64,000 nucleotides of DNA from a virus, in the IMG/VR virus record IMGVR_UViG_3300017917_004503, positions 62,001 through 126,000 of that record; one strand, given 5' to 3'. The translations under genes were made by a program, and so were the position numbers. Below, piece after piece: positions 8,013 to 51,859 of the stretch (positions within the stretch are counted from its first letter, which is position 1; each line of letters begins with the position of its first letter). The notes below the pieces were generated by a model. The model was given only the letters and a program-made list of their open reading frames with translations. It had not been told where the DNA came from and ran no database searches.

Positions 8013-9977
8013 ATGTCACAACTACAATCGTTAAAAGAAGATCTCGTTTTGAATGTTTTCATTCTTGAAAAACAAAATTCAATTCTAGAGTCTAAGAAAT
8101 CTGAATCTGATGACTATGTCCTAGAGGGTATAGCTGCTGTGTTCGGTCAAGAGAACAACAACAATAGGATTTACGAAGAGAAAGAATATCTTCCACACCT
8201 TGAGTACTTAAAAGAAAAAATCTCTCAAAACAGATTGGTTGGAGAATTAGATCATCCTGAAAAGTTCGATGTATCTCTTAAGAATATCTCTCACATTATC
8301 ACAGACCTTAATCATGATAAGGATGGTAGAGTCCTTAAAATCAAAGTAAAACTTCTTGATACCCCAGCTGGTAATATAGCAAAAAATTTAGTTGAAGCAG
8401 GAGTTCCACTTTCAATTTCGTCGAGAGCAGCAGGATCAGTAGGCCCTGATAAAAAGGTTCAGATTAAAAAAATCTTTACTTATGATCTAGTAGCCGATCC
8501 TGGATTCAAAGATGCACAACTTGAAAGAGTATATGAAAGCCAAGGATTTACCCCACAAATAGAAGAAATGAAAAAAAATAGCATTTTAAATCATTTAGAA
8601 TGTGTGAATGAGTCTTTAGGTCTAGAAAATGAATCATCGTTAAAGATATATAAAGTCGAAAACGATCAGGAGTTTGAAAAAATCGTAAATAAATCAGACA
8701 ATAAAAATAAATCAGTCCTTATGGAGAATAATGAGTTTGTTACTGAACAGGAGCTTAATAAGTATTCTATTTTCATTAAAAAAGAAATGGATGCTTTAAG
8801 ATCCGCTATCGCAGAGGTTAAAGATCAGAAAGTAACCTTAACAGAATCCGAAGAAGCTAACAAAATGAATAAAGCTCTCGAGGAAAGAGTTGCTAAATTA
8901 GAAAAATATTCAGAGTATTTAGCAGAGAACCTTGAAAGTGCAATTAAGTATGGCGAATATCTAGCTGAAAATTTAGATAATTCTATCAACTATAGTAAAT
9001 ATCTAGCTGAAAATTTAGATAAGAACATTTCTTACTCTAAGTATTTAGCTGAAAATGTTGATAAGTCTATTTCTTATTCAGAATACGTAGCAGAAAGCGT
9101 AGATAGAAACATTGAATATTCTAAATACTTGGCTGAAAAGTTAGATCAGAATATCCAATACTCTGAGTACCTTGCAGAAAACGTTGATCACTCTATTAAC
9201 TATTCTGAATATCTAGCAGAAAACTTAGATAAGGGTATTGCTTATACTGAGTATGTGGCTGAAAAATTAAATGACGGTATTGAATATACAGAATATCTTG
9301 CAGAAAATCTTAATAAAGGAATTCAATATTCTGATTATTTAGCAGAGAATATTAACAAAAGCGTAGACTTTACTGAAAATCTTTCAGAAAAGCTTAATAA
9401 ATCAATATCATATGCTGAGTATATTGCTGAGTCAATTTCTACTAAATTGCCAGCTGACCCTAGCGTAATTTTAAAAGAAAGTGTAAATACATCTGCTGCT
9501 GCAGGCCTAAATGAATCCGGATTTGCTGGTAATTATGAAGGTCTAACATCTCAGATAGATTCACTAATCGAATCGGTTAAAACACAAAAAACCGAGACTA
9601 ATATAAACGAAGCTGCTAAAATGGCAGCACCAGCCGAAACCCAGAAGGCAGAAGAGGTTCTCAATGAAACAGAGAACACCAACAAAACAGGAATTAAATT
9701 TATTGATGATATGCCTGAAGAATACGTTCAGGTTTGGGAATCACTTAATGAAGGACACAAGCAATCAATTATTGCTCAATCTAACTTCTATAAATTGAAC
9801 ACTCCTTACCAGATTAAAAATTTCTGGCAAACACGTCAGTTAGGATCTAAACCTGTTGGTGTACAAAAACTCAACGAGAATGAAAACGTTGCTGAAACCG
9901 CAAAAAATCAAGCTTATAGTACAGATTACATGAATTATATAGCTAGTGCGTTAGAGCAAAAGTTTGGAAAAAGATAA
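8013..9977 (+). CDS. Prohead core protease fused to scaffold (gp21-gp22-like)
   Basis: Protein of 654 aa. The N-terminal ~200 residues match T4 gp21-type prohead proteases: NRLVGELDHPE holds the catalytic-type histidine and PLSISSRAAGS the catalytic-type serine, followed by a VADPGF block. The remainder is helical and charged: thirteen 14-residue repeats at 298-479, then a tail with many potential self-cleavage sites (LNES, INEA, LNET, LNEG, LNEN) and an amphipathic end. In T4 the protease (gp21) and the main scaffold (gp22) are separate genes; here one reading frame appears to hold both. The major capsid gene follows after 23 bases. An internal in-frame ATG (8569 or 8721) could produce scaffold alone. 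The protease call is firm; the scaffold call is inferred from position, composition and cleavage sites. Confidence 0.85.
   Translation: MSQLQSLKEDLVLNVFILEKQNSILESKKSESDDYVLEGIAAVFGQENNNNRIYEEKEYLPHLEYLKEKISQNRLVGELDHPEKFDVSLKNISHIITDLNHDKDGRVLKIKVKLLDTPAGNIAKNLVEAGVPLSISSRAAGSVGPDKKVQIKKIFTYDLVADPGFKDAQLERVYESQGFTPQIEEMKKNSILNHLECVNESLGLENESSLKIYKVENDQEFEKIVNKSDNKNKSVLMENNEFVTEQELNKYSIFIKKEMDALRSAIAEVKDQKVTLTESEEANKMNKALEERVAKLEKYSEYLAENLESAIKYGEYLAENLDNSINYSKYLAENLDKNISYSKYLAENVDKSISYSEYVAESVDRNIEYSKYLAEKLDQNIQYSEYLAENVDHSINYSEYLAENLDKGIAYTEYVAEKLNDGIEYTEYLAENLNKGIQYSDYLAENINKSVDFTENLSEKLNKSISYAEYIAESISTKLPADPSVILKESVNTSAAAGLNESGFAGNYEGLTSQIDSLIESVKTQKTETNINEAAKMAAPAETQKAEEVLNETENTNKTGIKFIDDMPEEYVQVWESLNEGHKQSIIAQSNFYKLNTPYQIKNFWQTRQLGSKPVGVQKLNENENVAETAKNQAYSTDYMNYIASALEQKFGKR
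8904..9449 (+). repeat. Thirteen tandem 14-codon repeats in the scaffold domain
   Basis: Residues 298-479 are an uninterrupted run of 14-residue units with consensus xYSEYLAENLDKSI. Conservation is stronger at protein level than at DNA level (synonymous codons vary between units), which implies selection for the helical protein pattern. The unit length equals two heptads. The last two units are the most degenerate. Confidence 0.9.
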
Positions 9978-10000: not shown

Positions 10001-11719
10001 ATGAAATTGATTAACGAAAATGAAATCTATGAAACCTGGTCTCCGATTATCGAGAGCAAAGCAGGTATCACAGACGAAAGCAAAAAAGGGTGGTTGACTA
10101 AATACTGTCACTACCACTCATTAAACGAATCTGCCGGTGCATACAACTCTTTAGGTGTTGTTAACGGTATGGGTACTGTAGCTCCTCCAGCTTTCCCTGG
10201 TGCTGCTTATCCTGGTGGTTCGTATTCAACTGGCGCAAACGCTGGTTTCTATAACAACACTTGGCAAGGTTCAGGTGACAAATTCCCTTCACTTCTTCCT
10301 TTAGCTATTCAGGTAGCTGCGAAGACTATAGGTTTTGATATTGTCCCTGTTATTCCTTTATCAGGTCCAACCGGTATCTTATCTTATTTAGATTATGTGT
10401 ATGCTGGTGGTAAAATCAGTGCTGCTGCTGCATCTTCTGCTGCTGATCAGTTAGCTACTGCTCCTTCAATGATTAAATTCCCAGTTTATCAAACTGCTTC
10501 AGGCGCTGCTGGTACTACCGGTGCTACTGCTGGAACTTTCACTGTTGGTGCTACTGCATCTATTAGCTCAACTCTTCTTTTAACCTTCGTAGGTTTATCA
10601 AGAATTGACGGATTCCCTATCTTCGAAATTACTGGTCTTGCTTCAGGATCTAACGTTGCTTCTTATTTCAACGGAACTCCTGCTCAAATCGTAACTGGTT
10701 CTGGCGGATCTGGATTCTACACAGCTAACACTTCTGGTACAGCTCAGTTAGTAAAAGCTTTAGAAGATCACATCCAAGGTTTCTCTGGTGCTGGTTTCAA
10801 CGATACAAACGATTGGCAAGGTCCTTATGTTGATGGTACTAAGACTTACAATCCAATGTTAAGAGGAGTAGCTGAATCTACCTACTACAACTCAATGGGT
10901 CTTTCGACTTTCACTAAGTTCGTAGAAGCTGAAACTTTCCAAGTTGCTGCTTCAGTTACAACTGAGCAAATCCAAGACTTAAACAAGCAGTTCGGTATCG
11001 ATGTTATCTCAATGATCGAGAACGCACTTGTTAACGAGGTTTCTCAAGCTATCAATAAGCACATTCTTTCAAGAGCTTTTGCTTTAGGATGGTCTAACCA
11101 CACTCAATTCTTCGCAGTTGAAAATCAAAACCTTAACCTTAACTTAGTTATTGGTGGTGGTTCTGGAACTACTGCTGCTTACGTGAAGAAGGACGACACA
11201 ACTGGAACAATGCCTATCCCTACAGGTCCTGCATCAGGAGGATATGAGAACTTATCAACTTTACAAAGAAGATTATTCTCAAGAATTCTTGCAGCTGCTA
11301 ACGTGGTAGCTAACAGAGGTAGAAGAGGTCCTGCTAACTTCATCGTTACAAACGCTGCGGTTGCAAGTGCACTTCAAGACATCTCTCAGTTCACTTTCGC
11401 TCCATTCTCTAATACTTTAACTCAAAACAACGGTACTTTATACCCTGTAGGTTCACTTGCTGGTATGACAGTTTACGTAGATCAGAATATGAGATACGAT
11501 GATACCAGAGTTTGCGTTGGTAGAAAAGGTGGAGATGATGAGCCAGGATTAAAATTCATGCCTTACATGATGGCTGAATCAATCCAGACCATCTCAGAAG
11601 GTACTATGTCACCTAAGATCGCAGTTAAGTCTAGATACGCTCTAGTAGAAGCTGGTTTCTTACCAGAAACTATGTACTTAACATTCTATGTGAACGTGCC
11701 AGTTGGCGGATTAGCTTAA
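10001..11719 (+). CDS. Major capsid protein, T4 gp23-like
   Basis: Protein of 572 aa directly after the protease-scaffold gene, as in the T4 order 21-22-23. Residues 36-47 contain CHYHSLNESAGA, so cleavage after E43 would remove a 43-residue N-terminal peptide, as T4 gp23 loses its first 65 residues. The body has HK97-type features: a long helix around VTTEQIQDLNKQFGIDVISM, an NxxRRGPANFIVTN segment and a late PKIAVKSRYALVEAGF block. The middle part (about 60-270) is Gly/Ala/Thr-rich and could be an inserted surface domain. Codon choice is visibly different from neighbours (more AAC, TTC, TAC, GGT, GCT), as expected for the most highly expressed gene. A terminator follows. Confidence 0.88.
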   Translation: MKLINENEIYETWSPIIESKAGITDESKKGWLTKYCHYHSLNESAGAYNSLGVVNGMGTVAPPAFPGAAYPGGSYSTGANAGFYNNTWQGSGDKFPSLLPLAIQVAAKTIGFDIVPVIPLSGPTGILSYLDYVYAGGKISAAAASSAADQLATAPSMIKFPVYQTASGAAGTTGATAGTFTVGATASISSTLLLTFVGLSRIDGFPIFEITGLASGSNVASYFNGTPAQIVTGSGGSGFYTANTSGTAQLVKALEDHIQGFSGAGFNDTNDWQGPYVDGTKTYNPMLRGVAESTYYNSMGLSTFTKFVEAETFQVAASVTTEQIQDLNKQFGIDVISMIENALVNEVSQAINKHILSRAFALGWSNHTQFFAVENQNLNLNLVIGGGSGTTAAYVKKDDTTGTMPIPTGPASGGYENLSTLQRRLFSRILAAANVVANRGRRGPANFIVTNAAVASALQDISQFTFAPFSNTLTQNNGTLYPVGSLAGMTVYVDQNMRYDDTRVCVGRKGGDDEPGLKFMPYMMAESIQTISEGTMSPKIAVKSRYALVEAGFLPETMYLTFYVNVPVGGLA

Positions 11720-11738
11720 TCGCTTTTCTTCATAATAT

Positions 11739-11770
11739 AAAACCCCAGGCCTTAAAACCTGGGGTTTTTT
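11739..11770 (+). terminator. Rho-independent terminator after the capsid gene
   Basis: AAAACCCCAGG (11739-11749) pairs with CCTGGGGTTTT (11758-11768) around an 8-nt loop, followed by a short T run. It is the most GC-rich hairpin in the window and ends the capsid transcript 20 bases after the stop codon. Confidence 0.9.
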
Positions 11771-11812
11771 GTTTCTTGTCACCTAGGCTCTTTGGGAACT
11801 AATAATAATTGG

Positions 11813-11820
11813 GATATATA
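11813..11820 (+). promoter_or_regulatory. Putative late promoter P3 (GATATATA)
   Basis: GATATATA located 25 nt before the preferred ATG at 11845. The longer reading frame that opens with TTG at 11809 would translate through the motif, which is a reason to prefer the downstream ATG. Confidence 0.65.
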
Positions 11821-11844
11821 GATAACAAAAATGAATTGTTTCCG

Positions 11845-12990
11845 ATGAAAAATTTACCATCATTTAAAGACTTTAGTAATTACTCCTCCCTTCTTGAAAC
11901 TGCATCAGCAGAGGAAATTAGACTACTTAATGAGTTAGAAACCTCTGATCCTAATCATACACTCAATGAAGGAAAAATTTTAGATACCGTAAAGAATGAA
12001 TTGTCTAAATTTTTTCTTGGTAAATATTCTAAACTAAGCGTAATAGATAAAGCTAGAAAAGTTTTAGTCGATCTGGAAATTGATCTTATTGAGAAAAAAT
12101 ATGAATTTGAAGAATCTATTTCTAATATAGATTCTCAAATAGATTCGATTGGTAGCTCTGGTGATAAACAGAGATTGATTGCACTCAGAAAAGATAGAGA
12201 TAATAAGATTAAGGAATTTGAAAAATATGAGGAGTCTTCTAAACTAAAGATGAAAAAAGCCATCGAAGTAATTAGAGAAATGATCGAAGGTGATTCAAGA
12301 AAAAGAAAGTATTATGAAGCCGGAAGATCCGAAGATGAAATTGGATTAGCTGAATTGAAGTACAAATTCGCAAAAGAAAAATCTGATGATAAGGAAATCA
12401 AAAAATACGAAGAAGCAATTAGAAAGGCTAAAGAAGAAGCTGAAGCTAAAGCAGATGTCCTGAAATCTGAGATCGAAACTAAAGAAAAAGATAGCGAGCC
12501 TGAAGCATCTAATCAGGTTCAAGTTGTTAAAATTGATCCTGAAAAAGAAAAGAAAAAAATATCTAGCAGAAGAGGTAAGGACATCATTGAAAGAAAAAGA
12601 CAACTTGAAAATTCCATAGTAGATTTAAAAGCTGATATGGAAAGAATTCTGACCCAAATGGAGAAACATATAAAGTCAGGTAAGAAAATTTCTAGATCGT
12701 ATATCAACAACAAGAAGATTCAACTTCTTTCTATGGCATCTTCAATCGATTCTCAGACCAATTTACTTAAAATCCTTAGAGACTTAGGAAAAAGTGAAAA
12801 TGAGATAACGAAGAAACTTTCTAAAGAACAGGAATTTACCAAATTGGCTAATCTTATAAATCAAGGCATTGCCGAGGGCGAAGATGCCAAATCTGGTTTA
12901 AAGAAAGTCGTTTCTTCCATCTTTGTTGGTCCAGAGGGAACGATAAACACTGAAAAGGTTAAACAAGCTAAAGAAAAATTGAATAAATAA
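11845..12990 (+). CDS. Probable internal head protein, coiled-coil, with maturation site
   Basis: Protein of 381 aa from ATG 11845 (a TTG at 11809 would add 12 residues, but that leader contains the promoter motif). After a short N-terminal part (MKNLPSFKDF...) comes HTLNE|GKILDTVKNELSKFF, with a gp21-type cleavage site after E42. The rest is almost entirely charged helix (Lys/Glu-rich, coiled coil from about 60 to 300). The segment after the cleavage site is similar to the same segment in the next gene (LNEASVLDKLKNFLSGAF), so the two look like paralogues. By analogy with T4 internal and core proteins, the N-terminal piece would target the protein into the prohead and be removed. Exact function unknown. 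Confidence 0.65.
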   Translation: MKNLPSFKDFSNYSSLLETASAEEIRLLNELETSDPNHTLNEGKILDTVKNELSKFFLGKYSKLSVIDKARKVLVDLEIDLIEKKYEFEESISNIDSQIDSIGSSGDKQRLIALRKDRDNKIKEFEKYEESSKLKMKKAIEVIREMIEGDSRKRKYYEAGRSEDEIGLAELKYKFAKEKSDDKEIKKYEEAIRKAKEEAEAKADVLKSEIETKEKDSEPEASNQVQVVKIDPEKEKKKISSRRGKDIIERKRQLENSIVDLKADMERILTQMEKHIKSGKKISRSYINNKKIQLLSMASSIDSQTNLLKILRDLGKSENEITKKLSKEQEFTKLANLINQGIAEGEDAKSGLKKVVSSIFVGPEGTINTEKVKQAKEKLNK

Positions 12991-12991
12991 T

Positions 12992-13909
12992 ATGACTCTG
13001 AATTTTACAGAATGGGAAAGGCTTAATGAAGCTAGTGTTTTAGATAAACTCAAAAATTTCTTGAGTGGAGCTTTTGGTGGTTCGATTTCTAAATTGGATA
13101 ACCTTGGCGAGGAATATAGATCTGCAGAAATGGATTATGTTGATGAGTGGGAGAAAATCCAAGAGGAAATTGATAAACTAGAATTACAAAGATCCCAAAC
13201 CAAAGCTGATCCTGCAGAACTCAAAAAGATCGATAGATTAATCGTTAGAAACAATCAACTTCTTAGTTCTCAGTCAAAGGCACACGAAAAGAAGACTGAT
13301 GAAATCTTTTTAAAAGTTAAAAAGATAATCACTGAAAACAAAAGACTTAGAACTTATTGGGAAAGAATAAAGACTAAAATAGATTCTGAGGTTAGCCAAG
13401 ACATGTATGAGAAAGCCAAAAAGCTATCTGATTCTTCTTTAGCTGATTCATTGTATACCAAATATAAAGATGCTGTACTAAAGGCTAAACAAAAGGATGA
13501 AGAATTTAGAGAGAAGTATGGCAATTTGATGACTCGAGAAATTCAGGCTGGTCCAAAGTCATCAAAGTTTAAAGATGATGAAATTGATTCCGAAATTGAT
13601 GGCGAGTCTTCAGAAACTTCCTTTTCATATCTTTCCAAATTACCTGTTTCAGATTTTTCTAAAGCTGTTAAAAATCTTGAGCAAAAGGATGCTAAAAGCT
13701 TATTGTCTTATTTAATTAAGCAAAGGAATGAAAGATATGTCGCAATGGATTTAGAAAGAGATGCACTTAACAAATTTGTTTCTAGTGCTTCTAATAAGGA
13801 TAAGGCTAGAGATTTAGCTTCAGATAAAATTAAGGACATCAGATCTAGATATATGTCAGAAATTCGTGATTTAAGATCTAAAATAACTTTAACTAGAAAA
13901 TATGCTTAA
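12992..13909 (+). CDS. Probable internal head protein, paralogue of the preceding gene
   Basis: Protein of 305 aa starting 1 base after the previous stop. It opens MTLNFTEWERLNE|ASVLDKL, a 13-residue leader ending in a consensus gp21-type cleavage site, very like the capsid-targeting peptides of T4 internal proteins in length and style. The rest is charged and helical, with a Ser-rich acidic patch near 200 (DGESSETSF). The post-cleavage segment aligns by eye with that of the preceding protein. Ends overlapping the next gene by 8 bases. Not homologous to anything I can name. Confidence 0.65.
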   Translation: MTLNFTEWERLNEASVLDKLKNFLSGAFGGSISKLDNLGEEYRSAEMDYVDEWEKIQEEIDKLELQRSQTKADPAELKKIDRLIVRNNQLLSSQSKAHEKKTDEIFLKVKKIITENKRLRTYWERIKTKIDSEVSQDMYEKAKKLSDSSLADSLYTKYKDAVLKAKQKDEEFREKYGNLMTREIQAGPKSSKFKDDEIDSEIDGESSETSFSYLSKLPVSDFSKAVKNLEQKDAKSLLSYLIKQRNERYVAMDLERDALNKFVSSASNKDKARDLASDKIKDIRSRYMSEIRDLRSKITLTRKYA

Positions 13910-14153
13910 TTTCGAAGAATTTAGGTTAAGTGAGGCAGAAACCAAATTAACCACTATACAGAAAATCAAGACTCAGATTTCAGAGAAGTTTGATGCGATC
14001 AACAACGCTAAAAAAACTAAAAAACCGGGAGATATGAATTCCGAGGTTAATAGTATAATTGCTCAATCTACTTTATACTCAGAGATTTCTGCAATGATGA
14101 AAACTTTGGCGGCGGAGATTAAAGCCAGTGGTAAAAGTGAAAATATATATTAA
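13902..14153 (+). CDS. Small probable internal head protein with maturation site
   Basis: Protein of 83 aa whose ATG overlaps the end of the preceding gene by 8 bases (translational coupling likely). It begins MLNFEEFRLSE|AETKLTTIQ: an 11-residue leader with LSE|A, again a gp21-type site, followed by a short basic helix-rich body. Size and layout resemble the small internal proteins (IPs) of T4, which are packaged in the head and injected with DNA. This is inference from the leader and context. Confidence 0.6.
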   Translation: MLNFEEFRLSEAETKLTTIQKIKTQISEKFDAINNAKKTKKPGDMNSEVNSIIAQSTLYSEISAMMKTLAAEIKASGKSENIY

Positions 14154-14155
14154 GT

Positions 14156-16636
14156 ATGAATAAGAACCCTTATATCAATAATCCTGTAGCTAATAGTTTT
14201 CTACAGGAATATTATGACAAGATTTTCGAAAACGAGAATGTCGATGAACTTTTGGTTAAAATTGCAGATAATTCTTTAAACGCTTTTAAAATTATAACTT
14301 TCGATTTAGCTCCTAAGAGAGATAGAAATCCTGATGTTATTAGAGTAAAATTATCTGATGTTGCTAATTCTAAAAATGTAAAGGAACTTACTTCTAAACT
14401 TTTAGATTATGCTGACGATAATGATTTGGTTAATTCTAAATTCTACGAGTCTAAAAAGCTCTATTTGGATGCTCTGAAGAAATTCTGTGAAGCTTTAAAT
14501 AGAACATCAGAAATATCTAAATCTAAAGACGAGGTTTCAATAAAGCAATTTAAGTTAGCTGCAAGCAAACTTATGAACTCTATCGATAACATCGCTAAGC
14601 AAGCAGCAGAGGAAGAGAAAAAAGCTAATGAAAATCTGGATCTTTATTATTTCGAAGATCATTTAAATGAATCTATTTTTACTGGATATAAAGATAGACT
14701 CAAGGATTTAAAGAAGCTTCTCACCAATCTCAAAACTTCTGCAGAAGGAAAGGATCAGAAAAATGGATATGGTAAAGACTGGAAGATGGTTTTTGTCGAA
14801 TTGGATGAAAAAAGAAAAACCCTGGATGTAAATGAGGGCGGTGAAAAAAATCGTAAGCTTTTAGAGGAATTAGAAAAACAGGTTGCTAAATTCCAAGCGG
14901 AATTCAACGATTCTTTAATTAAAGCTGCTAACAGATCTTTACAGAAACTTGAAGCCGATGAGGAAATATACACAACATATTCGGATGTTACTGATCTTGT
15001 TGGTCAGGCCATTGAATTGTTAACTAGAGCAAAGACTCAATATTTAATGGCGGTGAAAGATATCAAAGATGAGAATGAGGTTAAGGAAATAGAGATTTCT
15101 AAAACTCTTTTTCCTTTGAAAAGAGGTGATACAGATTCTGACAAAAAGATGAAAAATAGTGGATTGATATTCGCTATTCAAAAATCTTTTGTCGATGGCA
15201 TACCATCAGCAGGAAAGCTTTTAAAATCTAAAGGTGGACCTAATGGTAAATATGGTCCGGCTACAACGTCTATCGTGGCAACAATCCAGAAGATAACAGG
15301 AAATAAAAACCAGAACGGTGAACTTGATAGAACCCTTTTAGGCGATATAATTTCTTCTGATTGGGTTTCTGGTGAAAACAAAAAGAAAATTCAAACTGCA
15401 TTAGAGATCATAAAATCTAAGACGAATGAAAACTATAATTATTTGTCATATGAGAAAATTTTCGAAGGGAAGATCCAAATTAATCAATCTGAATTTGAAT
15501 CTGAGTTAGCGAAAAAATTCGATGAAGTGAAAAGCATGTCTGTTGATAGAGCAAAGGGTGAAGATGTCAGTCATAAACCTGGATCCGCATCGGGTGTAGG
15601 TAAATTGGCAAAAAAACTTAGGGAACTCTATAGTATTAAAATAGAGGAAGATGCTTTTGTGAAATCCGATGGAACTTTAAAATCCTCTTATTCAACACAA
15701 TTTATAAAAGATTGGAATTCAGCTTTAGAAAAAGTTGAAAACGAAGAACCTAAGAATTTCGCATATTTCTTTGCTGATGGTGGAGTTTATAACATAAATC
15801 TAGCATCAACTTCTCTTAAAAATGCTTGCAACTGGTCTAAGTGGACAGATTTCAGAAAGATAAAGGATTTAAATGACGAGGATGCGATCGACTTCTTAAC
15901 CAACTATCTTAAAGGTTGGACTACTTTCGGTATGGTAAGACCTGGCTACAGATACGATGGTATTAAAACTCTTACTAAACAAAATTCAGATAACGATTCT
16001 TTAGATCTTTCTGGTCCTTATGAGATGATGGAAACATCGATTAAAAACAAAGAGATTCCTTTCATTGATTATGAAACCCTCAAAGGAGACATTGCTAAAG
16101 CTTTTAAAATTGTTTTACAAAAGGAAGAAAAATCTCCAGACTTGGGTAAGGAAGAATTTGTTGCTTTGAATAACTTTTTAATCATGATTGCTAATTGCGT
16201 TAGCTTTAACGGTGAAAAATTCATAAGCTGTGTGAAATGGATTGATGAAAACGTGATCGGAGAATCTACAGCCAAAAGGATAATCAAAGATCAAATAATC
16301 GGAATCGATAGAGACGATTCTGATACGGGACGTTTATTAGGTTACGAGTCTTCTAGAATTATAGTTGGCAAGTTTTCTGAAATAGCTAAAAAGCAAACCT
16401 CAACCAAAAGGAAGAAACAAATGTCTCAATCACTTACTTCACTTAATACTCTAGCTGGAATGAAAGTTGGTGATAGAGAAGCTATAGGAATAAGGGACGT
16501 TTTAGCCGATACCTGCTATTATATAGCTGCAGACATCTATCCCAGCATAGAAACCCATATAAAACGTATGAATTCTAAGTCTTTTGATCAAATACCCCAA
16601 CAAACACCTAATAAATGTGTTAATGTTTCTAAATAA
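14156..16636 (+). CDS. Large probable head-internal polyprotein with PG-binding-like segment
   Basis: Protein of 826 aa, 2 bases after the previous gene. It has three similar junctions: YYDKIFE|NE (about residue 25), YYFEDHLNE|SIF (after 172) and LSYEKIFE|GKI (after 437), each a possible gp21-type site, which would split it into modules. The middle module is charged helix plus a segment at about 336-400 (NGKYGPATTSIVATIQKITG followed by NGELDRTLLGDI) that resembles peptidoglycan-binding_1 domains (x-G-x-Y/F-G-P-x-T...). The last module (about 440-826) is globular and unrecognised. The gene ends at a terminator whose stem begins in the stop codon. A cargo injected with DNA or acting at the cell wall is possible, but not shown. 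Confidence 0.6.
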   Translation: MNKNPYINNPVANSFLQEYYDKIFENENVDELLVKIADNSLNAFKIITFDLAPKRDRNPDVIRVKLSDVANSKNVKELTSKLLDYADDNDLVNSKFYESKKLYLDALKKFCEALNRTSEISKSKDEVSIKQFKLAASKLMNSIDNIAKQAAEEEKKANENLDLYYFEDHLNESIFTGYKDRLKDLKKLLTNLKTSAEGKDQKNGYGKDWKMVFVELDEKRKTLDVNEGGEKNRKLLEELEKQVAKFQAEFNDSLIKAANRSLQKLEADEEIYTTYSDVTDLVGQAIELLTRAKTQYLMAVKDIKDENEVKEIEISKTLFPLKRGDTDSDKKMKNSGLIFAIQKSFVDGIPSAGKLLKSKGGPNGKYGPATTSIVATIQKITGNKNQNGELDRTLLGDIISSDWVSGENKKKIQTALEIIKSKTNENYNYLSYEKIFEGKIQINQSEFESELAKKFDEVKSMSVDRAKGEDVSHKPGSASGVGKLAKKLRELYSIKIEEDAFVKSDGTLKSSYSTQFIKDWNSALEKVENEEPKNFAYFFADGGVYNINLASTSLKNACNWSKWTDFRKIKDLNDEDAIDFLTNYLKGWTTFGMVRPGYRYDGIKTLTKQNSDNDSLDLSGPYEMMETSIKNKEIPFIDYETLKGDIAKAFKIVLQKEEKSPDLGKEEFVALNNFLIMIANCVSFNGEKFISCVKWIDENVIGESTAKRIIKDQIIGIDRDDSDTGRLLGYESSRIIVGKFSEIAKKQTSTKRKKQMSQSLTSLNTLAGMKVGDREAIGIRDVLADTCYYIAADIYPSIETHIKRMNSKSFDQIPQQTPNKCVNVSK

Positions 16637-16667
16637 GGAATGATTTTAAAATCATTCCTTTTTTTTT
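16635..16667 (+). terminator. Rho-independent terminator overlapping the stop codon
   Basis: AAGGAATGA (16635-16643) pairs with TCATTCCTT (16652-16660), with TTTTAAAA between them that can extend the stem; a T run follows. It closes the probable internal-protein block. The T run continues into a TATATTTG element. Confidence 0.85.
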
Positions 16668-16674
16668 ATATTTG
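16667..16674 (+). promoter_or_regulatory. Candidate Bacteroidota-type -7 element (TATATTTG)
   Basis: TATATTTG (TAnnTTTG consensus) begins in the last T of the terminator tract and lies 38 nt upstream of the kinase ATG at 16713. No clear -33 TTG is visible. With the matching element at 3811 it suggests that metabolic genes are read by host polymerase rather than by the late system. Confidence 0.4.
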
Positions 16675-16712
16675 ACCCTGGAAACAATCTAATTTGATTC
16701 CATATAAAAAAT

Positions 16713-17282
16713 ATGGTTTACGTTTTTGAGGGTCCACGAAATAGTGGTAAAACCTTTTTATCCAATTACATTTCTCAAAAAACCCATATTGAGAGGTTTC
16801 AATTTGCTTTTGTTGACTATTTTAAAAGATTGGGTTTGGAGAGTCAAGACAGTAAAGAGGCCCACGCTTTTTCTATGGGAAAGGAATTAATGCTTATGCA
16901 ACTTTTCAAGGATGTGCAGTTTAAGAAGGATCTAATCCATGATCGGGGAATACTTACTGTTTTATCATGGGGTATTATGGAAAATAGGATAACCGAGCAG
17001 GAAATGGAACGCCAGGTAAAAATGCTAAGTGATCTGGATCTCATGAAAAACATCAAAGTTTTTTTCGTTACAGGAGAAAATCCCAATAAAGAAAATAGAA
17101 ATAAAGACGATTGGGATAGAATCGATGGTGATTCCAGAGAATTGGAATGTTATGAGAAAGTTATAAAAAAATTCGAGGAATATGATATTTGTAAAATCTA
17201 TCGTTTTACCAATAATTACGACGATCAGACGTTAGTCTCTTCCTTTGAATTTTTCGAAAAATTAACTCAAGACTTAATTTAA
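16713..17282 (+). CDS. P-loop nucleoside/nucleotide kinase-like protein
   Basis: Protein of 189 aa with an N-terminal Walker A motif, FEGPRNSGKTFLSN (residues 5-18), a DRG motif in LIHDRGILTVL (about 73-83), and a C-terminal region rich in R/K/D (lid-like NKENRNKDDWDRIDG). This is the layout of deoxynucleoside and thymidylate kinases. It probably phosphorylates a (deoxy)nucleoside or nucleotide for phage DNA synthesis; the substrate cannot be read from the sequence. It is 5 bases before the asparagine synthetase gene, and the two form a metabolic pair between structural blocks. Confidence 0.7.
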   Translation: MVYVFEGPRNSGKTFLSNYISQKTHIERFQFAFVDYFKRLGLESQDSKEAHAFSMGKELMLMQLFKDVQFKKDLIHDRGILTVLSWGIMENRITEQEMERQVKMLSDLDLMKNIKVFFVTGENPNKENRNKDDWDRIDGDSRELECYEKVIKKFEEYDICKIYRFTNNYDDQTLVSSFEFFEKLTQDLI

Positions 17283-17287
17283 ATAAT

Positions 17288-18697
17288 ATGTGCGGAATAT
17301 TACTGACGACAAGGGCGCAAAAGAATAAAAATATACTCGATTCCATAAAGCACAGAGGAATTGAAAGAAGTGATCTTGAATTAGATCAGGTTACATTATG
17401 TCATCATAGACTTCCTATCCAAACCTTAGATGGAGATGAATGGGCACAGCCTCGAGAACTGAGTCCTGGAATTTATATGATGTTTAACGGTGAGATCTTC
17501 AATTACGATAAAAATAGATTTAGTTCAGATACCGAATATCTTTGTAGCTTGTTTTCTAACCTTAATGGAATTAACATTGAGTTTTTCGCTGCTATTTATC
17601 AATCACACATCCAGACATGGGATGGGTTTTGGGCTATAGTTTTCTATGATTCTAGAAACGGTGACATACTTGCCTTTACTGATCCTTTAGGTAAAAAATG
17701 TTTGTATAAAAATGATCTTGGTGAGATCTGTTCCGAAATTAAAGGATTGAGAGGTCCACTAGATGAAATTGATGAAATTTATATTAGCTCTGTTAGAAAA
17801 TGGGGATACAATAAAGATAACAGAACTCCCTTTAAAAACATCAAAAGGCTCCTACCTAATACCTTTCATTTTTATAATATAGCATCACCACACTTTATAA
17901 AAAATTATGGTCCATATTACAGGACTTGGGAATCCCCTATTAGAGAATTACAGGGTGCTTCATACGAAGACCATATGAATTGGTTATGGGATAAAATGTT
18001 CGAAAGTGTAGGGAATAGACTAGTTTCTAAAAATTATCCAATTTCTCTTCTTGTGTCTGGAGGCTTGGATTCTTCGATTATAGCTGCTATACTTAAACAA
18101 ATGGAAGCACAGGTCACCTGGTTTTCTATTGAGAATGGTGAAACCCCATTTGTTACCGATTTAGGAGCTCATTTAGACACCCAAATAAATTTTCTAGAGT
18201 ATGATATGGATTCTAGTAAAAATGCTCTTATATACACACTATGGAACGAAACACCGGTTGATCTTGGCTCCGTTGTACCTCAGTATCATTTATTCGAGGC
18301 AGTAAAAAAGAAATCTGGATATAGAATAGTCCTCAGTGGGGACGGATCTGATGAATTGTTTGGTGGATACTCGAGGATACATGAATATGATTCTCAGCAA
18401 TCTGATATATTCGAAGAACTTACATTTTACCATTTACCCAGACTTGACAAGATGTCTATGGCTCACACCTTGGAATTGAGAAACCCTTTCTTGAATCTAG
18501 AAATTGTTAGATTTTCCATGCACCTCCCTCTTGAATGGAGAACAGACAAAAAAATTCTTAAAGATACGTTTGGTCCTCTTTTGCCGGATTCTATAATTAA
18601 TAGAAAAAAAGAAGCCCTTAAAAATCCAGAGATAAAGGATGACAAGTTAAAATATAGACAAAAAGCTGTTGATCTTTTTCTTTCATCACTATCTTGA
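17288..18697 (+). CDS. asnB: Asparagine synthetase (glutamine-hydrolysing), AsnB-like
   Basis: Protein of 469 aa, shorter than typical AsnB (about 550). Starts MCGILLTT, so after Met removal Cys becomes the N-terminal nucleophile of a class II glutamine amidotransferase. Further glutaminase features: CHHRLPIQ, FNGEIFNY and SDTEYL. The synthetase half has the PP-loop LLVSGGLDSSIIAAIL, the LSGDGSDELFGGYSR motif and the MSMAHTLELRNPFL block. All key motifs look intact, so the protein should be active. It would transfer glutamine nitrogen to aspartate using ATP, although relatives make other amide bonds (beta-lactam synthetase, lasso-peptide cyclase). The usual HRGPD is HRGIERSD here. It may raise asparagine supply or deplete glutamine during infection. 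Confidence 0.88.
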   Translation: MCGILLTTRAQKNKNILDSIKHRGIERSDLELDQVTLCHHRLPIQTLDGDEWAQPRELSPGIYMMFNGEIFNYDKNRFSSDTEYLCSLFSNLNGINIEFFAAIYQSHIQTWDGFWAIVFYDSRNGDILAFTDPLGKKCLYKNDLGEICSEIKGLRGPLDEIDEIYISSVRKWGYNKDNRTPFKNIKRLLPNTFHFYNIASPHFIKNYGPYYRTWESPIRELQGASYEDHMNWLWDKMFESVGNRLVSKNYPISLLVSGGLDSSIIAAILKQMEAQVTWFSIENGETPFVTDLGAHLDTQINFLEYDMDSSKNALIYTLWNETPVDLGSVVPQYHLFEAVKKKSGYRIVLSGDGSDELFGGYSRIHEYDSQQSDIFEELTFYHLPRLDKMSMAHTLELRNPFLNLEIVRFSMHLPLEWRTDKKILKDTFGPLLPDSIINRKKEALKNPEIKDDKLKYRQKAVDLFLSSLS

Positions 18698-18721
18698 TAA
18701 TAAGATGTAAACTAGGATTTG

Positions 18722-18729
18722 GATATATA
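18722..18729 (+). promoter_or_regulatory. Putative late promoter P4 (GATATATA)
   Basis: GGATATATAAAAG, with the last motif base 18 nt before the ATG at 18747, just after the asparagine synthetase gene. Confidence 0.65.
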
Positions 18730-18746
18730 AAAGAAAAATTTATTCG

Positions 18747-19415
18747 ATGACTAGAATTATAAAAGATCTGGGTTCATTTACAGAAAGTGAAAAAATTAAC
18801 GAAGATTTTAGTTGGGGTAATCTAATATCAGGTGCATTGGATTTAGGTGGTGAAGGACTGAGAAAAACCATTAAAGAGAAAATAGCTGCTTCGATAATGG
18901 AAAAGTTTGGAATTTTAGATAATTCGATCTTTTCTGGATTGATCCAAGAAGTCGTAGATGCTATACCCGTTAAAGATTATCCTGGTATCATCATGGGTGA
19001 AAAAGCAAACGTAGACTATCTTGCACCTTTTATGGTTCAGGCAATAGGAGAATTTGTCGAAAGAAAAGGCTTAGACACTTTTGCAGAATCACTTGGATTA
19101 GATCCTAGAGGATGGCTTTATAGCACGATAGCTAACAGTCTTCAAACTGAAAGAGGGAAAGAAACTCTAAAAAATCTTTTTGTCGAAGCTTTCGGTGGTA
19201 AAGGAGCCCAAGGATCTGTAGCTAGAGATGCTATATCAGGTTTACCACAAAGAGATAAAGTTAAAATTTCTGATAGTGTCAAGAAAAAACTTTCCACATT
19301 ATACGGCAAACCCGTTGACATGGAGCCTAAAAAAGATGATAAAGGTGTAGGTGACTATATTTCAGACTTTTGGCATTCTTTATTAGGTGACAAAGAACCT
19401 AAAAAAACATTTTAA
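18747..19415 (+). CDS. Unknown late protein with possible maturation site
   Basis: Protein of 222 aa behind a putative late promoter. The N-terminus reads MTRIIKDLGSFTESEKINE|DFS, where INE|D at residue 19 fits the cleavage pattern seen in the capsid and internal head proteins. The mature part begins with a Gly-rich amphipathic segment (LISGALDLGGEGLRKTI) and is mostly helical, with a WLYSTIANSLQTERGKETL helix in the middle and a charged C-terminal tail. It could be another packaged head protein. No known family is recognised. Confidence 0.5.
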   Translation: MTRIIKDLGSFTESEKINEDFSWGNLISGALDLGGEGLRKTIKEKIAASIMEKFGILDNSIFSGLIQEVVDAIPVKDYPGIIMGEKANVDYLAPFMVQAIGEFVERKGLDTFAESLGLDPRGWLYSTIANSLQTERGKETLKNLFVEAFGGKGAQGSVARDAISGLPQRDKVKISDSVKKKLSTLYGKPVDMEPKKDDKGVGDYISDFWHSLLGDKEPKKTF

Positions 19416-19418: not shown

Positions 19419-19763
19419 ATGAACATAAATAACGTTGCTCAAAGAGAAATCTTAGATTTCAATAATTTCAGAAAGAAGGTACATGACGATACCTATAAGC
19501 CATTATCACCTTCGAACCAATCAGAGGGAGGATTGGAAAAATCTGGATTGCATGATATAAAAAGAGAACCTGCTTATGATTATGCAGGGTATGCTGATTC
19601 TGTTTTTGCTGGTAAATCTAAGATTGATGTACCAGGAGTTAGAATTAAAATGGGAGAAGAATCTGGTTTGTCTGATTCAACCGGATTTGGAACGTCTTTT
19701 AACATGAATACTAGTGAATCTGATCAGAGTTCTTCTGTTCTAAAAAGACTATCAGATTTTTAA
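19419..19763 (+). CDS. Unknown small late protein
   Basis: Protein of 114 aa, 3 bases after the previous gene and ended by a bidirectional terminator. It is polar, Ser/Gly/Asp-rich and has little predicted core, so it is probably an extended or disordered peptide. The opening IL-D-F-N-N-F is similar in style to the short leaders of the probable head proteins (x-F-x-x-F). No cleavage site is convincing. Function unknown. Confidence 0.5.
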   Translation: MNINNVAQREILDFNNFRKKVHDDTYKPLSPSNQSEGGLEKSGLHDIKREPAYDYAGYADSVFAGKSKIDVPGVRIKMGEESGLSDSTGFGTSFNMNTSESDQSSSVLKRLSDF

Positions 19764-20610: not shown

Positions 20611-21051
20611 ATGAGCCGAATTTACGATTATAATCAATTTTCATCTAAAAAAAACAGAATAGGGGGAGATTTTACCTTCGGACAAGAGATGAGATATGTT
20701 GATATCGATCTTTTCGATAGACCCGAAGAATGGGCTGATCTTGATGACTGTAAAGCTTTTATCGAGTATTCTATTGATATTAATGTAAAAAAATCTGGTA
20801 TAGAAGGACTTACTTTCAGAATTAATTCGGTGGAACTAGAGTTTACCGTAGATGACTATCCAAATTCTTCAAAAGAATTTGATTTTGATCTAATTCCTGG
20901 TAAAACTATAGATTACAGCCAGCTTAATGAAAATCCATTGGATTATGTCATACCTTCATATCCTTCCAATTTAGAAATTAATATGAACAAAAGTCAAGAA
21001 CCTTCTAAATGGAAAATAAAAGTAAATTTTGGTACTGATGTCAACTCATAA
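20611..21051 (+). CDS. Unknown small protein, first of the long late block
   Basis: Protein of 146 aa. Starts MSRIYDYNQF and is predicted beta-rich (alternating hydrophobic residues around 45-75 and 105-140). The next gene starts inside its last 14 bases. Position at the head of a late block suggests a virion or assembly role, but I see no motif. Unknown function. Confidence 0.55.
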   Translation: MSRIYDYNQFSSKKNRIGGDFTFGQEMRYVDIDLFDRPEEWADLDDCKAFIEYSIDINVKKSGIEGLTFRINSVELEFTVDDYPNSSKEFDFDLIPGKTIDYSQLNENPLDYVIPSYPSNLEINMNKSQEPSKWKIKVNFGTDVNS

Positions 21052-21937
21052 ATCTAGATTGTTAAGTTTTTCTGATTTTTCCAGAGGTGTTTTCGAGTCA
21101 AGTTCTTATGAAATCCCTGGAATAGTAGATCTTCATGATGGTGGGTATGAAATTCACATAGCCCCTTTAGATTCAAGCCACGAAGAAAGATTTGACAAAA
21201 TTTTCATAAGCAAACAAAACGATAAGTCAATAGGATTAAGTTTCTTGGATAAAAATGGTAGGGAAGCTGAAATTTTTTGGATTCCTAAAGAAGCTACAGA
21301 ATCTACGGAAAATTCAATTAGAATTAAATCTATAAATCGATGGGCATCCAACCCCGATAATAAATCTAAGCTCGAAGATTTTTTCGAAGACTTTGCAGAT
21401 TCCGTCGAGAATTACAAGTTGACCGGATCATCCAGAAACGAGCAAAATGCAAAAGATGATGTTGAAATGATCATTGATTTGTTCGAGATTCCATCTAGAA
21501 TAAGCTCTTTTAAAAAATCTGGTGAGAATCAATGGGACGCTGAACTGGAAAACGGTAAAATCGTTGAGATAACAAAAAGAAATTCCGATGATCTTGTTTC
21601 CACTTTTAAGGTCTATCCTGATATAAATAGTTCCACACCATCCTTAATAATACAAAATACATCTACTCCTAAAACAACTTTTAATTCGGAGGAAATAGGA
21701 AAGATTGAGATCGATGACGTTTTCTTGGGCCTCAAAAAATGTAATCCTTATATCAAATTCCTGTTTAAAAAGTCTCTCGGTATAGTAACACACAGTGACG
21801 ATGCTGAACTTTACGCTTATTTTAGAGATAATTCTAAAAAAAGTGATATGGATCTACGCGACCTTAGAAATATTGCAACACTGCTTAAAGATACAGTAGA
21901 TCAATCCGAGATAAGACACATTTTAGATAAACGCTAA
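21038..21937 (+). CDS. Unknown late protein with possible maturation site
   Basis: Protein of 299 aa from ATG 21038; a TTG at 21029 is also in frame, but ATG is preferred. The gene overlaps the preceding one by 14 bases. The N-terminus MSTHKSRLLSFSDFSRGVFE|SSS has the F-x-x-F leader style and a VFE|S site after residue 20, weaker than the LNE sites elsewhere. The body is beta-rich up to about residue 100 and helical near the end (a DMDLRDLRNIATLLKDTVDQ helix). No family recognised. Confidence 0.5.
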   Translation: MSTHKSRLLSFSDFSRGVFESSSYEIPGIVDLHDGGYEIHIAPLDSSHEERFDKIFISKQNDKSIGLSFLDKNGREAEIFWIPKEATESTENSIRIKSINRWASNPDNKSKLEDFFEDFADSVENYKLTGSSRNEQNAKDDVEMIIDLFEIPSRISSFKKSGENQWDAELENGKIVEITKRNSDDLVSTFKVYPDINSSTPSLIIQNTSTPKTTFNSEEIGKIEIDDVFLGLKKCNPYIKFLFKKSLGIVTHSDDAELYAYFRDNSKKSDMDLRDLRNIATLLKDTVDQSEIRHILDKR

Positions 21938-28185: not shown

Positions 28186-30477
28186 TTGCTTGCAACAGAT
28201 CAACAAAGAAGTTTATTCCTCAAGGGATTTAAACTTTCAAACCAAGGAAAATATGAAGATCCAACTTATCTAGGATTTAAGATAGTTTTCGATTTCGGAG
28301 TTTTACCTGTGAGAGCTGACGATGGGTTAGCTCCAAGTCCTCTTTTTAGGATAGGAAGTTATGAGGATCAACAATTTTTTCCTTTAAATCCATTTGCTCA
28401 ACCACAGTATTCGTATAAGACTGGTCCTAATATAGCTTATTATTCCGCTGCTGAATACCTCAGACAAAGAGAGCAAAACTTTCCCCGTGGTGGAAAGAGG
28501 GCAGATATGTTGATTCAGTTTCGTAATTTATTAAACGATCTTGTTTCAAATTCACCATGGTTTTTACAATCTATCGATGGTTTGGACCAATTGGAAAAAG
28601 TAGAGCGTCCAGGATTTCCCACATTGGATATCGGTGGTTTTGATCCACAGAGAACAGGTAATAAGGTATTAACTTTCAACACTTTAGAGTCTCTGAATTT
28701 AAGAATGACTGCTTTAGCTGATCTTTATAATCAGGCTACTTTTGATTATGATAATATGAGGGAACTAGTCCCTAGGAATCTCCGAAGATTTACGATGTTT
28801 ATCTTCGTTCAAGAAATTAGAAATTTCTTTAAAACTTCTAGATTGATTGGTTCTTCTGCAGCTTTAACTTCACTCAACAATCTATCTGATCTACTGGGAG
28901 CAGGTAATAATCCTGGCAGTAATCTCGGAGCAGCTACTAACATAGCGAATCAGTTTGGACAGGAATTTGGTCAAGCTAATTCTGGTGGTGGAGGACCATT
29001 ATCTTCTTTTGTAGGTAACGTATTTAATAATTCTGGTGTTGATAATGACTATGCTATATTCACAAATCAGCAGGATCAAAGCGGGATTAAGCCAATGCTA
29101 ATCTATGAATGCAGAAATTGTGAATTTGATTTTAGCGACAGTACACCAATACCTAGCTCTATAAACGTTGGTGTTGATACAGCTACACCTGTTGGACAGA
29201 GCTTTAGAATTTTGGTTGGAAAGGTTAGAAAGAAGAGTCAATATCCAAATATCAGGCAAGATGGAAAGCCCTTAATTCTTGCTGATAGCTGGGATTCTTC
29301 TCGCTCGTCTGTTCAAAAAAATCCACAAGACACGAATGACATCTTATCTATTGGCGAAGAGCTTTTAACTAACTTTGTAAGTAATTCACTAAACGATCTT
29401 ATTAACGAAGGTATAAATAATTATGTTCTACCTGCGATTGCAGGAGCAGATAGATTAGCCTTAGGTAATGTTTATAGTTTAGATCCTGGACAGATCTTAT
29501 CAGATCTATCCTTTAACAATGCACAGAATTTTCTAAATCAATTGGGTAACGTCTCTGAAATTTCACTTCCTAATCCACAGACTTTAGGACAAGGTGGACC
29601 TCCAGAGAGGGTTTATATTAAACCAACTGGTGACGTTTATGCACAGGTTCCAGGAAGAGATCTTGGTGTTCCTGAAAGAGTTTACGTTAAGCCTAGTGGA
29701 GATTCCTATCCTGATGTACCAGGAAGGGATTTAGGGGTTCCTGGAAGAGTTTATAATACTCCATCTGGTGATGCCTATCCTGATGTTCCTGGTAAGGATC
29801 TCGGTGTTCCAGATAGAGTTTACACTCCACCTTCAGGTGATGCCTATCCTGATGTTCCAGGAAGAGATCTTGGTGTTCCTGATAGAGTTTATCCTTTACC
29901 AACTGGTGATGTCTATCCTGATGTTCCAGGAAGAGACCTCGGTGTTCCAGATAGAGTATATCCACCATCAACCGGAGATGTTTACACCGACGTACCTGGT
30001 AGAGATTTAGGTGTTCCTGATAGGGTTTACGGTAAGCCAGGAGGAGATGTTTATTCGAATGTTCCTGGTACAGATTTAGGTGTTCCTGATAGAAATTACA
30101 ATAAACCTCAGGGAAAGGTTTATCCTGATTCCCAGCCTTCTCCTAAATTAGGTGAATCGCAGGTTTATCCTGATTTTATTCCATCATCTCCTATCGATAT
30201 TTCGTCTCAAAGAGTTTATACAGATACTCCAAAAGTTAGTTACAACGGAGAACTGAGAGATGAATCTAATACTTTCTCGAGTAATCCTGGAAGAGTCTAT
30301 CCTGTCAACAAACCTTTTTCTGGTCAGAGTAGAGGAGATATCGGAAAGGCTTATCCTGAGACTACAGGAGATTTCATAATCGAAAAACCTTTAAATCTAG
30401 GAAATCTTAAACCAGAAGACAAATATAATATTAGTCTGGGACAAAACAATCCAGATCCTAATCAATTTGAAGATTAA
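28186..30477 (+). CDS. Baseplate/tail protein with seven 23-residue repeats
   Basis: Protein of 763 aa. There is no ATG between the upstream in-frame stop (28159) and the conserved-looking LATDQQRSLFLKGFKLSNQG opening, so TTG at 28186 is the likely start. The N-terminal ~400 residues contain RNLRRFTMFIFVQEIRNFF and a CRNCEFDFSDSTPIPSSINV block that resemble tube-initiator-type baseplate proteins. Residues 474-634 are seven tandem 23-residue repeats (RVYxxPxGDxYPDVPGRDLG core), decaying into degenerate RVY/Y-P motifs toward the C-terminus. Lies between the hub-like and spike-like genes. The repeat region is probably an extended proline-rich rod or flexible tether. Confidence 0.6.
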   Translation: MLATDQQRSLFLKGFKLSNQGKYEDPTYLGFKIVFDFGVLPVRADDGLAPSPLFRIGSYEDQQFFPLNPFAQPQYSYKTGPNIAYYSAAEYLRQREQNFPRGGKRADMLIQFRNLLNDLVSNSPWFLQSIDGLDQLEKVERPGFPTLDIGGFDPQRTGNKVLTFNTLESLNLRMTALADLYNQATFDYDNMRELVPRNLRRFTMFIFVQEIRNFFKTSRLIGSSAALTSLNNLSDLLGAGNNPGSNLGAATNIANQFGQEFGQANSGGGGPLSSFVGNVFNNSGVDNDYAIFTNQQDQSGIKPMLIYECRNCEFDFSDSTPIPSSINVGVDTATPVGQSFRILVGKVRKKSQYPNIRQDGKPLILADSWDSSRSSVQKNPQDTNDILSIGEELLTNFVSNSLNDLINEGINNYVLPAIAGADRLALGNVYSLDPGQILSDLSFNNAQNFLNQLGNVSEISLPNPQTLGQGGPPERVYIKPTGDVYAQVPGRDLGVPERVYVKPSGDSYPDVPGRDLGVPGRVYNTPSGDAYPDVPGKDLGVPDRVYTPPSGDAYPDVPGRDLGVPDRVYPLPTGDVYPDVPGRDLGVPDRVYPPSTGDVYTDVPGRDLGVPDRVYGKPGGDVYSNVPGTDLGVPDRNYNKPQGKVYPDSQPSPKLGESQVYPDFIPSSPIDISSQRVYTDTPKVSYNGELRDESNTFSSNPGRVYPVNKPFSGQSRGDIGKAYPETTGDFIIEKPLNLGNLKPEDKYNISLGQNNPDPNQFED
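29605..30087 (+). repeat. Seven tandem 69-bp repeats (23 residues each)
   Basis: Seven uninterrupted units starting at residues 474, 497, 520, 543, 566, 589 and 612 with consensus [DE]RVYxxPxGDxYPDVPGRDL then GVP. Units 2-6 are the most alike; the first and seventh differ more and an eighth copy is clearly decayed (30088 onward). The DNA copies differ mostly at synonymous sites. Confidence 0.92.
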
Positions 30478-51091: not shown

Positions 51092-51859
51092 TTAATCCTT
51101 TCCTAATTTTGGGTTTTTTTGTTCCCAATCATCAAAAGTTTCCTCTATGATTTTTACTATAGGATCCCTCACTATATCAGAAACCGAAAAATTCATAGTA
51201 CCTATATCTTCTTTGTCGTCAAATAACTTAATTACAAGATCCAGTGCTGACATTCTAGAGTTTTTAATGTCTATTTGTTTGGTGTCTCCTGTTATGATCA
51301 TTTTAGTATCCGTCCCAATTCTAGTCATAGTGGATCTCATGTTTTTCTGAGTTATGTTTTGGGCTTCATCCACTATGATTATTGCATTGTCTATCGATCT
51401 ACCCCTTATATAAGCTAAGGGTAAAACCTCTATGTATCCTTGGTCTAACATTAATTGTGTTAAAGACTCTCCTATTAATTTATGAAAATTATCTAGGAAA
51501 GAAATAGTAAAAGGGTACATTTTCTCTTTTAGATCTCCTTTTAAAAATCCAACTTCTTCACCCTCTAAAACTGTTACACTTTTAACTAAGATTATTTTTT
51601 TAAATCTTTGATCCGTTTTGAGCAATTTTAGTGCTTGAGCACATGCAAGGTAAGTTTTACCCGTTCCTGCTGGTCCTGCTGCAATAGTGATTTTGTTTTC
51701 ATTTATTAGATTTATGAGTTTTTTCTGGTTTTCATTCTTAAACTTGTAATCTAACTTAAGTTTTTGAAGATCGAATCTAGATCCATGCTGGTTTGGGTTT
51801 CCTGAATGAAACGTTTCGTAATACTCTTCATCTGTAATTTTCTTTTTTCTACTTGCCAT
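51092..51859 (-). CDS. phoH: PhoH-like P-loop ATPase
   Basis: Protein of 255 aa with the PhoH layout: Walker A in TIAAGPAGTGKTYLACAQAL (residues 58-77), the GFLKGDLKEKMYPF block, Walker B in IIVDEAQNIT and an ITGDTKQID sensor segment, followed by a VSDIVRDPIVK segment near the C-terminus. PhoH proteins are common in phages and are thought to act on RNA or in stress-related nucleotide metabolism; their phage function is not settled. The N-terminal 45 residues (Lys-rich, with YYETFHSGNPNQHGSRFDLQ) are phage-like extras. Reverse strand, isolated from late promoters, so probably early or middle expressed. Confidence 0.9.
   Translation of the reverse strand: MASRKKKITDEEYYETFHSGNPNQHGSRFDLQKLKLDYKFKNENQKKLINLINENKITIAAGPAGTGKTYLACAQALKLLKTDQRFKKIILVKSVTVLEGEEVGFLKGDLKEKMYPFTISFLDNFHKLIGESLTQLMLDQGYIEVLPLAYIRGRSIDNAIIIVDEAQNITQKNMRSTMTRIGTDTKMIITGDTKQIDIKNSRMSALDLVIKLFDDKEDIGTMNFSVSDIVRDPIVKIIEETFDDWEQKNPKLGKD

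Follow-up and report, generated by a model that had tools for sequence, protein, structure and literature searches.

The genes around the major capsid gene of this virus very probably encode the head-maturation machinery of a T4-like phage together with cargo of the head interior, with cuts after a glutamate predicted in the scaffold, the capsid protein and the cargo. The stretch analysed (the window, 64,000 nt) comprises bases 62001–126000 of a virus record of 151,373 bases; features are collected in Table 1, where a vertical bar within a motif marks a predicted cut. The original prediction, that one maturation motif is common to the capsid protein, the protease-scaffold and five neighbouring genes, is borne out by both the positions of the sites and their conservation. 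As far as was found, a T4-like prohead-protease and capsid-targeting system is apparently undescribed for this clade; literature searches on such leaders in jumbo phages or phages of Bacteroidota gave, on this point, only work on T4, SPN3US, P1 and P22.

Among annotated phages, relatives of the capsid protein occur in Lak, Tenacibaculum PTm1, Flavobacterium MaF61, Chryseobacterium MA9V-1, PAU and uncultured huge phages, so that, judging by this kinship, the host is likely to belong to the Bacteroidota. The comparison set consisted of 80 IMG/VR loci with capsid identities of 73–99% (best segment), and gene order was identical in those that were inspected. The head gene block also includes an asparagine-synthase-like gene (window nt 17288–18697; Pfam Asn_synthase, 1e-39), the position of which is unchanged in the inspected relatives. 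Elsewhere in the window are an ORF with tandem GVPDRVYxxPSGDxYPDVPGRDL-type repeats near its C-terminus (nt 28186–30477) and an ORF of 1733 aa with repeated domains separated by long Thr/Ser-rich low-complexity stretches (nt 39064–44265).

Table 1. Protease-scaffold, capsid and putative cargo features, with coordinates in the window (in the last row, in the named loci of a 348-kb relative).
Feature	Position (nt)	Strand	Basis or remark
Prohead protease (S77-like) fused to scaffold	8013–9977	+	Pfam Peptidase_S77, PHROG
Predicted N-terminal processing site of protease, LKE9|D	8031–8042	+	conservation
Scaffold repeats, 12 YxxY[LVI]AE units	8907–9431	+	residues 299–473
Major capsid protein (gp23 family)	10001–11719	+	Pfam Gp23
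Predicted capsid maturation site LNE43|S	10121–10132	+	aligned with PAU LME64|N
Putative tagged cargo 1, 381 aa	11845–12990	+	orthologs, paralogy with 12992 product
Predicted cargo 1 site LNE42|G	11962–11973	+	conservation
Putative tagged cargo 2, 305 aa, leader MTLNFTEWERLNE	12992–13909	+	leader
Predicted cargo 2 site LNE13|A	13022–13033	+	conservation
Putative tagged cargo 3, 83 aa, leader MLNFEEFRLSE	13902–14153	+	leader
Predicted cargo 3 site LSE11|A	13926–13937	+	conservation
Putative polyprotein cargo, 826 aa	14156–16636	+	three conserved sites, linkers, split in L085
Predicted polyprotein site IFE25|N	14222–14233	+	conservation
Predicted polyprotein site LNE172|S	14663–14674	+	conservation
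Predicted polyprotein site IFE437|G	15458–15469	+	conservation; gene boundary in L085
Predicted mature fragment B	14672–15466	+	peptidoglycan-binding-like domain near C-terminus
Putative tagged cargo 4, 222 aa, leader MTRIIKDLGSFTESEKINE	18747–19415	+	leader
Predicted cargo 4 site INE19|D	18795–18806	+	conservation
Possible further tagged cargo, leader ...LLSFSDFSRGVFE|S	21038–21937	+	pattern match
Leader-bearing genes of the relative: RimK ATP-grasp, GDPD, PG_binding_1, OmpA-like, weak phosphotransferase-like	L151:2580–4034 (-), L147:17226–18308, L143:18551–19900, L148:18513–19748, L146:2561–3397		

The 8013 product matches Pfam Peptidase_S77 (PF03420, E = 1.2e-8, above the cut-off) and the PHROG family of head maturation proteases (1.1e-36), and would be expected to cut after [LIV]xE. 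Its own predicted N-terminal site at residue 9 reads LKE9|D in the phage under study and LNE| or INE| in relatives, with the motif kept at 0.87 against a flank identity of 0.35 (n = 54); T4 gp21 has an N-terminal site of its own, LIE-9 (PMC9026906). The repeat units of the scaffold part, spaced mostly by 14 residues, are kept at 0.98–1.0 across 56 relatives (for the units listed) and resemble YQEFIAE of the T4 tag. Sites of the [LIV]NE type had also been said to recur in the scaffold tail, and five were located there: LNE501|S, INE533|A, LNE552|T, LNE580|G and LNE622|N. Outside the window, nt 51700–54255 of the record encode a protein of 851 aa, possibly a further processed head protein, in which several [LIV]NE-type sites occur together with a weak MutS2-type SH3 domain and, C-terminally, AEAPG-like repeats.

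The capsid protein is assigned by Pfam Gp23 (PF07068, E = 9.9e-41) and by a match to the T4-type capsid in the PDB (1.7e-8). Conservation of its LNE|S was set aside as evidence because the entire protein is conserved (79% mean identity), and support comes instead from its homolog in phage PAU, which is listed with 585 residues and has a mature form of 520 as determined by N-terminal sequencing (PMC5646251). LME64|NYQISGTGDILGMG of PAU aligns with LNE43|SAGAYNSLGVVNGMG of the protein under study. A cut after E64 would leave 521 residues, a discrepancy of one from the published 520, so the mature end of the PAU protein fits the aligned LME|N and is consistent with processing after glutamate. A comparable [LI]xE| site is present in the capsid proteins of PTm1, MA9V-1, Lak, MaF61 and LR756500, and the T4 capsid protein itself contains FGSFLTE|AE. 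A separate observation concerns a protein of 135 aa encoded outside the window (record nt 148370–148777; L008:4371–4778). Behind a VNE|D in this protein, the N-arm of the mature capsid protein is copied (GLATLGTVSGMGNPAPP...GSGDKFPSL), a copy kept in orthologs of about 14 of 24 relatives, and there is a C-terminal [YF]x[DE]F; by sequence likeness the protein would be a capsid-arm mimic.

All six sites listed originally were recovered at residues 43 (capsid protein) and 42, 13, 11, 172 and 19 (the 11845, 12992, 13902, 14156 and 18747 genes). The accompanying description of leaders of 11–19 residues stands for the three genes with 11, 13 and 19; the leader of the 11845 gene is 42 residues long, and the site at residue 172 in the 14156 product is internal. 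A short leader with an aromatic core and a terminal [LI]xE| before a small residue is present in the 12992, 13902 and 18747 families and in that of a gene at record nt 8532. The one nearest to the T4 tag belongs to the 13902 gene, whose orthologs start MLKFKEFLIKE|A, MLNFKDFKLQE|A or MLSFNEFRLSE|A; set beside T4 MKTYQEFIAE|A, the first of these upholds the proposed likeness to T4 capsid-targeting sequences. The start of the 11845 gene is the conserved ATG at nt 11845 and not the TTG at nt 11809, orthologs beginning MKN[LI]PSF. Its product and that of the 12992 gene are paralogous (E = 0.001), and their similarity starts at the site although the leaders before it differ in length (42 and 13 residues). 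In the AlphaFold model of the 18747 product, which is poor overall (pLDDT 62), residues 1–34 are of low confidence. The 21038 gene has only two orthologs in the locus set, and a similarly placed gene in the 348-kb relative starts MVLGFKDFQKNKINE|S. Two leader-like genes, at nt 19419 and 20611, were excluded from the tagged set as they lack a conserved site; the former (nt 19419–19763) belongs to a conserved family of 114 aa starting MN..DVxKREILDFxxF, a leader-like core with no conserved cut site behind it.

Because the [LIV]xE motif alone is common, the sites were assessed by conservation and by N-terminal pattern, of which conservation is the stronger test, the predicted sites being far better conserved than the residues around them. 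In alignments of 26–65 orthologs, the listed site is the best-kept [LIV]xE in each of the five variable families, with the motif retained in 96–100% in four of them and the glutamate in 95% in the 18747 gene, against about 37–50% for the average glutamate. The motif is kept at 1.00 for LNE42 (50 orthologs; mean Glu column 0.38), at 1.00 for LNE13 (65 orthologs and paralogs) and at 0.96 for LSE11 (26 orthologs), while for INE19 the values are 0.95 for the glutamate and 0.75 for the full motif (n = 40). When 66 candidate sites from 16 families were ranked by conservation minus flank identity, the top 14 all lay in protease-scaffold or cargo proteins, and nine neighbouring control families contributed none of them. 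Over 12 aligned sites, P2 is asparagine in 390 aligned cells, though this position was unselected, and P1' is mostly S, G, N or A.

The 14156 product has the layout of a polyprotein with sites at residues 25, 172 and 437, rather than that of a single protein with a leader of 172 residues, and the predicted fragments are 26–172, 173–437 and 438–826. IFE25 is kept at 0.88 (48 orthologs), LNE172 at 1.00 and IFE437 at 0.96 (flank 0.29). In the AlphaFold model (mean pLDDT 80), linkers of low confidence span residues 20–24, 160–173 and 424–438 and coincide with or adjoin the three sites. A fold search with this model gave nothing at E<=0.001 in the PDB or BFVD, and weak coiled-coil and tape-measure matches, none of them reaching that threshold, were disregarded; tblastn of the 12992 and 14156 products against annotated phages found no relatives. 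In the fragment B family, 28 of 38 full-length members match PG_binding_1 at E<=1, the best with 7e-7; the fragment in this record alone gives 0.024, under the curated cut-off.

Domains of this kind recur on tagged genes of the 348-kb relative, in which 37 of 419 genes match the leader pattern against 7.6 in shuffled sequences and 11.2 from internal windows, with about 25–30 tagged genes above chance expectation. The similar leader stands on otherwise unrelated proteins, with differing Pfam domains behind it: a RimK-type ATP-grasp enzyme (2e-32) whose domain begins directly after the leader, a glycerophosphodiester phosphodiesterase (GDPD, 2e-16), PG_binding_1 (6e-12) and an OmpA-like domain (2e-7). 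The peptidoglycan- or wall-binding domains hint at an action on the cell wall at entry.

These features bear on the view that the sites are genuine and the proteins are parts of the core or scaffold, like T4 gp67, gp68 and gp22, which are cut up and leave the head. The genes do adjoin those for capsid and scaffold, the 11845 and 12992 products and the N-terminal 14156 product seem to be mostly helical, and gp21 fragments of T4 core proteins mostly exit the head (PMC9026906). Such a role is nonetheless judged unlikely, if well short of negligible, as each variable cargo protein has one conserved N-terminal or inter-domain site and long site-free mature parts while the scaffold has many sites, and as the peptidoglycan-binding-like domain in one fragment and the RimK ATP-grasp, GDPD and OmpA-like domains on the relative's tagged genes speak against it. 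A head-interior location of the tagged proteins is well supported, and the proposal that they are injected effectors is plausible, the peptidoglycan-binding-like domain and the domains on the relative's tagged genes being the only hints at function; cleavage, scaffold docking, virion location and host delivery are predictions.

Gene fission provides a further line of evidence. In locus L085 (nt 12399–14865) the 826-aa ORF is represented by two genes, the first with a stop and the second beginning immediately after it with a leader of its own, MSKIYNIAEYNSLILE|NKISLN, which aligns with LSYEKIFE|GKIQIN at site IFE437. Similarly, a tagged ORF of 567 aa at record nt 9809 is split near VVFE263|G in other relatives (L108/L113, L114, L115), where the downstream genes begin MDIISINE|GF or MSN..INE|SF. 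That genes of two families should be fused or split at predicted cuts would be difficult to account for if no cutting took place there, and this would be a clear case of evolution from polyprotein to separate genes at protease sites. The same gene pairs weigh against reading the N-terminal aromatic motif as a targeting or assembly signal with no link to the head, beside which the LxE is incidental: split genes rebuild leader and site together where an internal site had stood, LxE is the most conserved element in the tagged families, and [LIV]NE|S/G recurs in capsid and scaffold. Occurrence of the aromatic core with no site, as in the conserved 19419 family, is what such a signal would predict, but overall this account is very improbable.

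The original prediction had called for a genome-wide search for leader plus site. Of the 129 called genes of the record, 7 have in their first 45 residues a pair of aromatics with [LIVF]xE plus a small residue no more than 12 residues behind it (F..[FW]...[LIVF]xE[GASD]); shuffles gave 0.82 (maximum 5, of 2000), and 0.87 would be expected from internal windows. A slightly wider pattern matched 10 genes against 2.2, and 0 of 1000 shuffles reached 10. The aromatic-x-x-aromatic element alone was not enriched in this record (41 vs 34) and was not used as evidence. Tagged genes thereby appeared well outside the interval of nt 10121–19000 to which the family had been assigned, namely at record nt 8532 (MKIGKVVDFRTFHKLNE|A), 9809, 141945 and 144916; for the first two, orthologs turned up in just 5 of 24 relatives, fragments among them. 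The gene at record nt 46316 also matches, probably by chance, its product being a relative of dCMP deaminase. The leader core is degenerate, and matches in single genes or genomes outside the conserved families may be due to chance. That the motif as a whole merely reflects a Glu-, Leu- and Asn-rich composition is hardly credible: [LIV]xE[GASD] is indeed frequent (17.7 of 129 N-termini expected from shuffles), but leader and site are jointly enriched, the predicted sites are near-invariant, and for the main sites conservation refutes the idea.

On the favoured reading of maturation machinery and head cargo, the serine protease fused to scaffold would form the prohead core. Cargo would bear a leader of typically about 11–20 residues, an aromatic-x-x-aromatic core and then [LIV]-(mostly N)-E, and by analogy with T4 this core would dock it on the scaffold, which displays a dozen similar YxxYLAE copies; leader and scaffold repeat would then be versions of one recognition peptide. 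Once active, the protease would cut cargo, capsid protein and scaffold after glutamate, so that the scaffold is destroyed and mature cargo is set free within the head; the polyprotein would yield three mature products. A bolder proposal, to which somewhat less than an even chance is given, is that the leader is a genome-wide packing label and the YxxYLAE repeats its multivalent copies, so that loading, assembly and destruction all use one peptide. If so, leaders would list the head-packed protein set of a jumbo phage from sequence alone. Most jumbo-phage genes are without known function, and label plus cut site would place dozens of them inside the head, with predicted mature ends, and single out candidates for delivery at infection by Bacteroidota phages; the varied natural leaders would also be a resource for protein packaging studies.

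Comparison with other phages sets bounds to the distribution of the tag. In crAss001 there was no leader excess, and an S77 protease was looked for and not found; Tenacibaculum phage PTm1 showed no N-terminal leader excess even though its protease is of the same family, and in MA9V-1 the excess was modest and confined to one pattern. Given these last two, not all related phages use the tag. Phage PAU shares a homologous gp23-type capsid protein, the one with the sequenced mature N-terminus, and 17 of its approximately 288 ORFs start with a leader MK[ST][LI]xxL[YF]E (MKxLxxLYE-like). A short leader is found on 4 of 5 PAU proteins annotated plainly as 'internal capsid protein' (about 4e-5 by chance, the basis of the annotation being unstated), while two 'internal capsid vertex' proteins have none; this overlap counts as support and not as proof. 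The leader sequence differs from that of the phage under study, and the 12992 and 14156 cargo have no detectable PAU homologs. The jumbo (bS21) phages of lake Bacteroidetes are described as having a 'prohead core scaffolding and protease' gene (PMC9723584). By that description, on which the likeness rests, they share a protease-scaffold gene near the capsid gene, a freshwater metagenomic origin and predicted Bacteroidetes hosts; leaders and cleavage sites are not discussed in the passages of that paper that were consulted.

In phiKZ, 201phi2-1 and SPN3US a gp21-like protease likewise processes many head proteins after glutamate, and there is a large head-interior set (PMC9026906), but in the phage under study capsid and protease are T4-like in sequence and short leaders are common to unrelated genes. 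With T4 it has in common an S77-family protease, a gp23-type capsid, an L/I-x-E cleavage motif and an N-terminal site on the protease. In T4 itself, gp21 cleaves behind L/I-x-E, and ten N-terminal residues are enough to direct an internal protein to the head; within this tag, residues 4 and 7 matter for targeting, and processing depends on 8 and 10 (PMC9026906). A short-leader pattern gave 14 matches in T4 against 3.9 shuffled, MKTYQEFIAEA included, and the tag of T4 IPI-III, MKTYQEFIAE|A, has the same design of a short leader with aromatic-x-x-aromatic and then [LI]xE| before a small residue. New relative to T4 are the polyprotein cargo, the repeat scaffold fused to the protease and the breadth of tagging: T4 has a separate gp21 protease and gp22 scaffold, while here protease and scaffold are one protein with twelve leader-like repeats, one cargo is a three-part polyprotein, P2 is strongly Asn, and the tested cargo has no detected relatives outside the clade.
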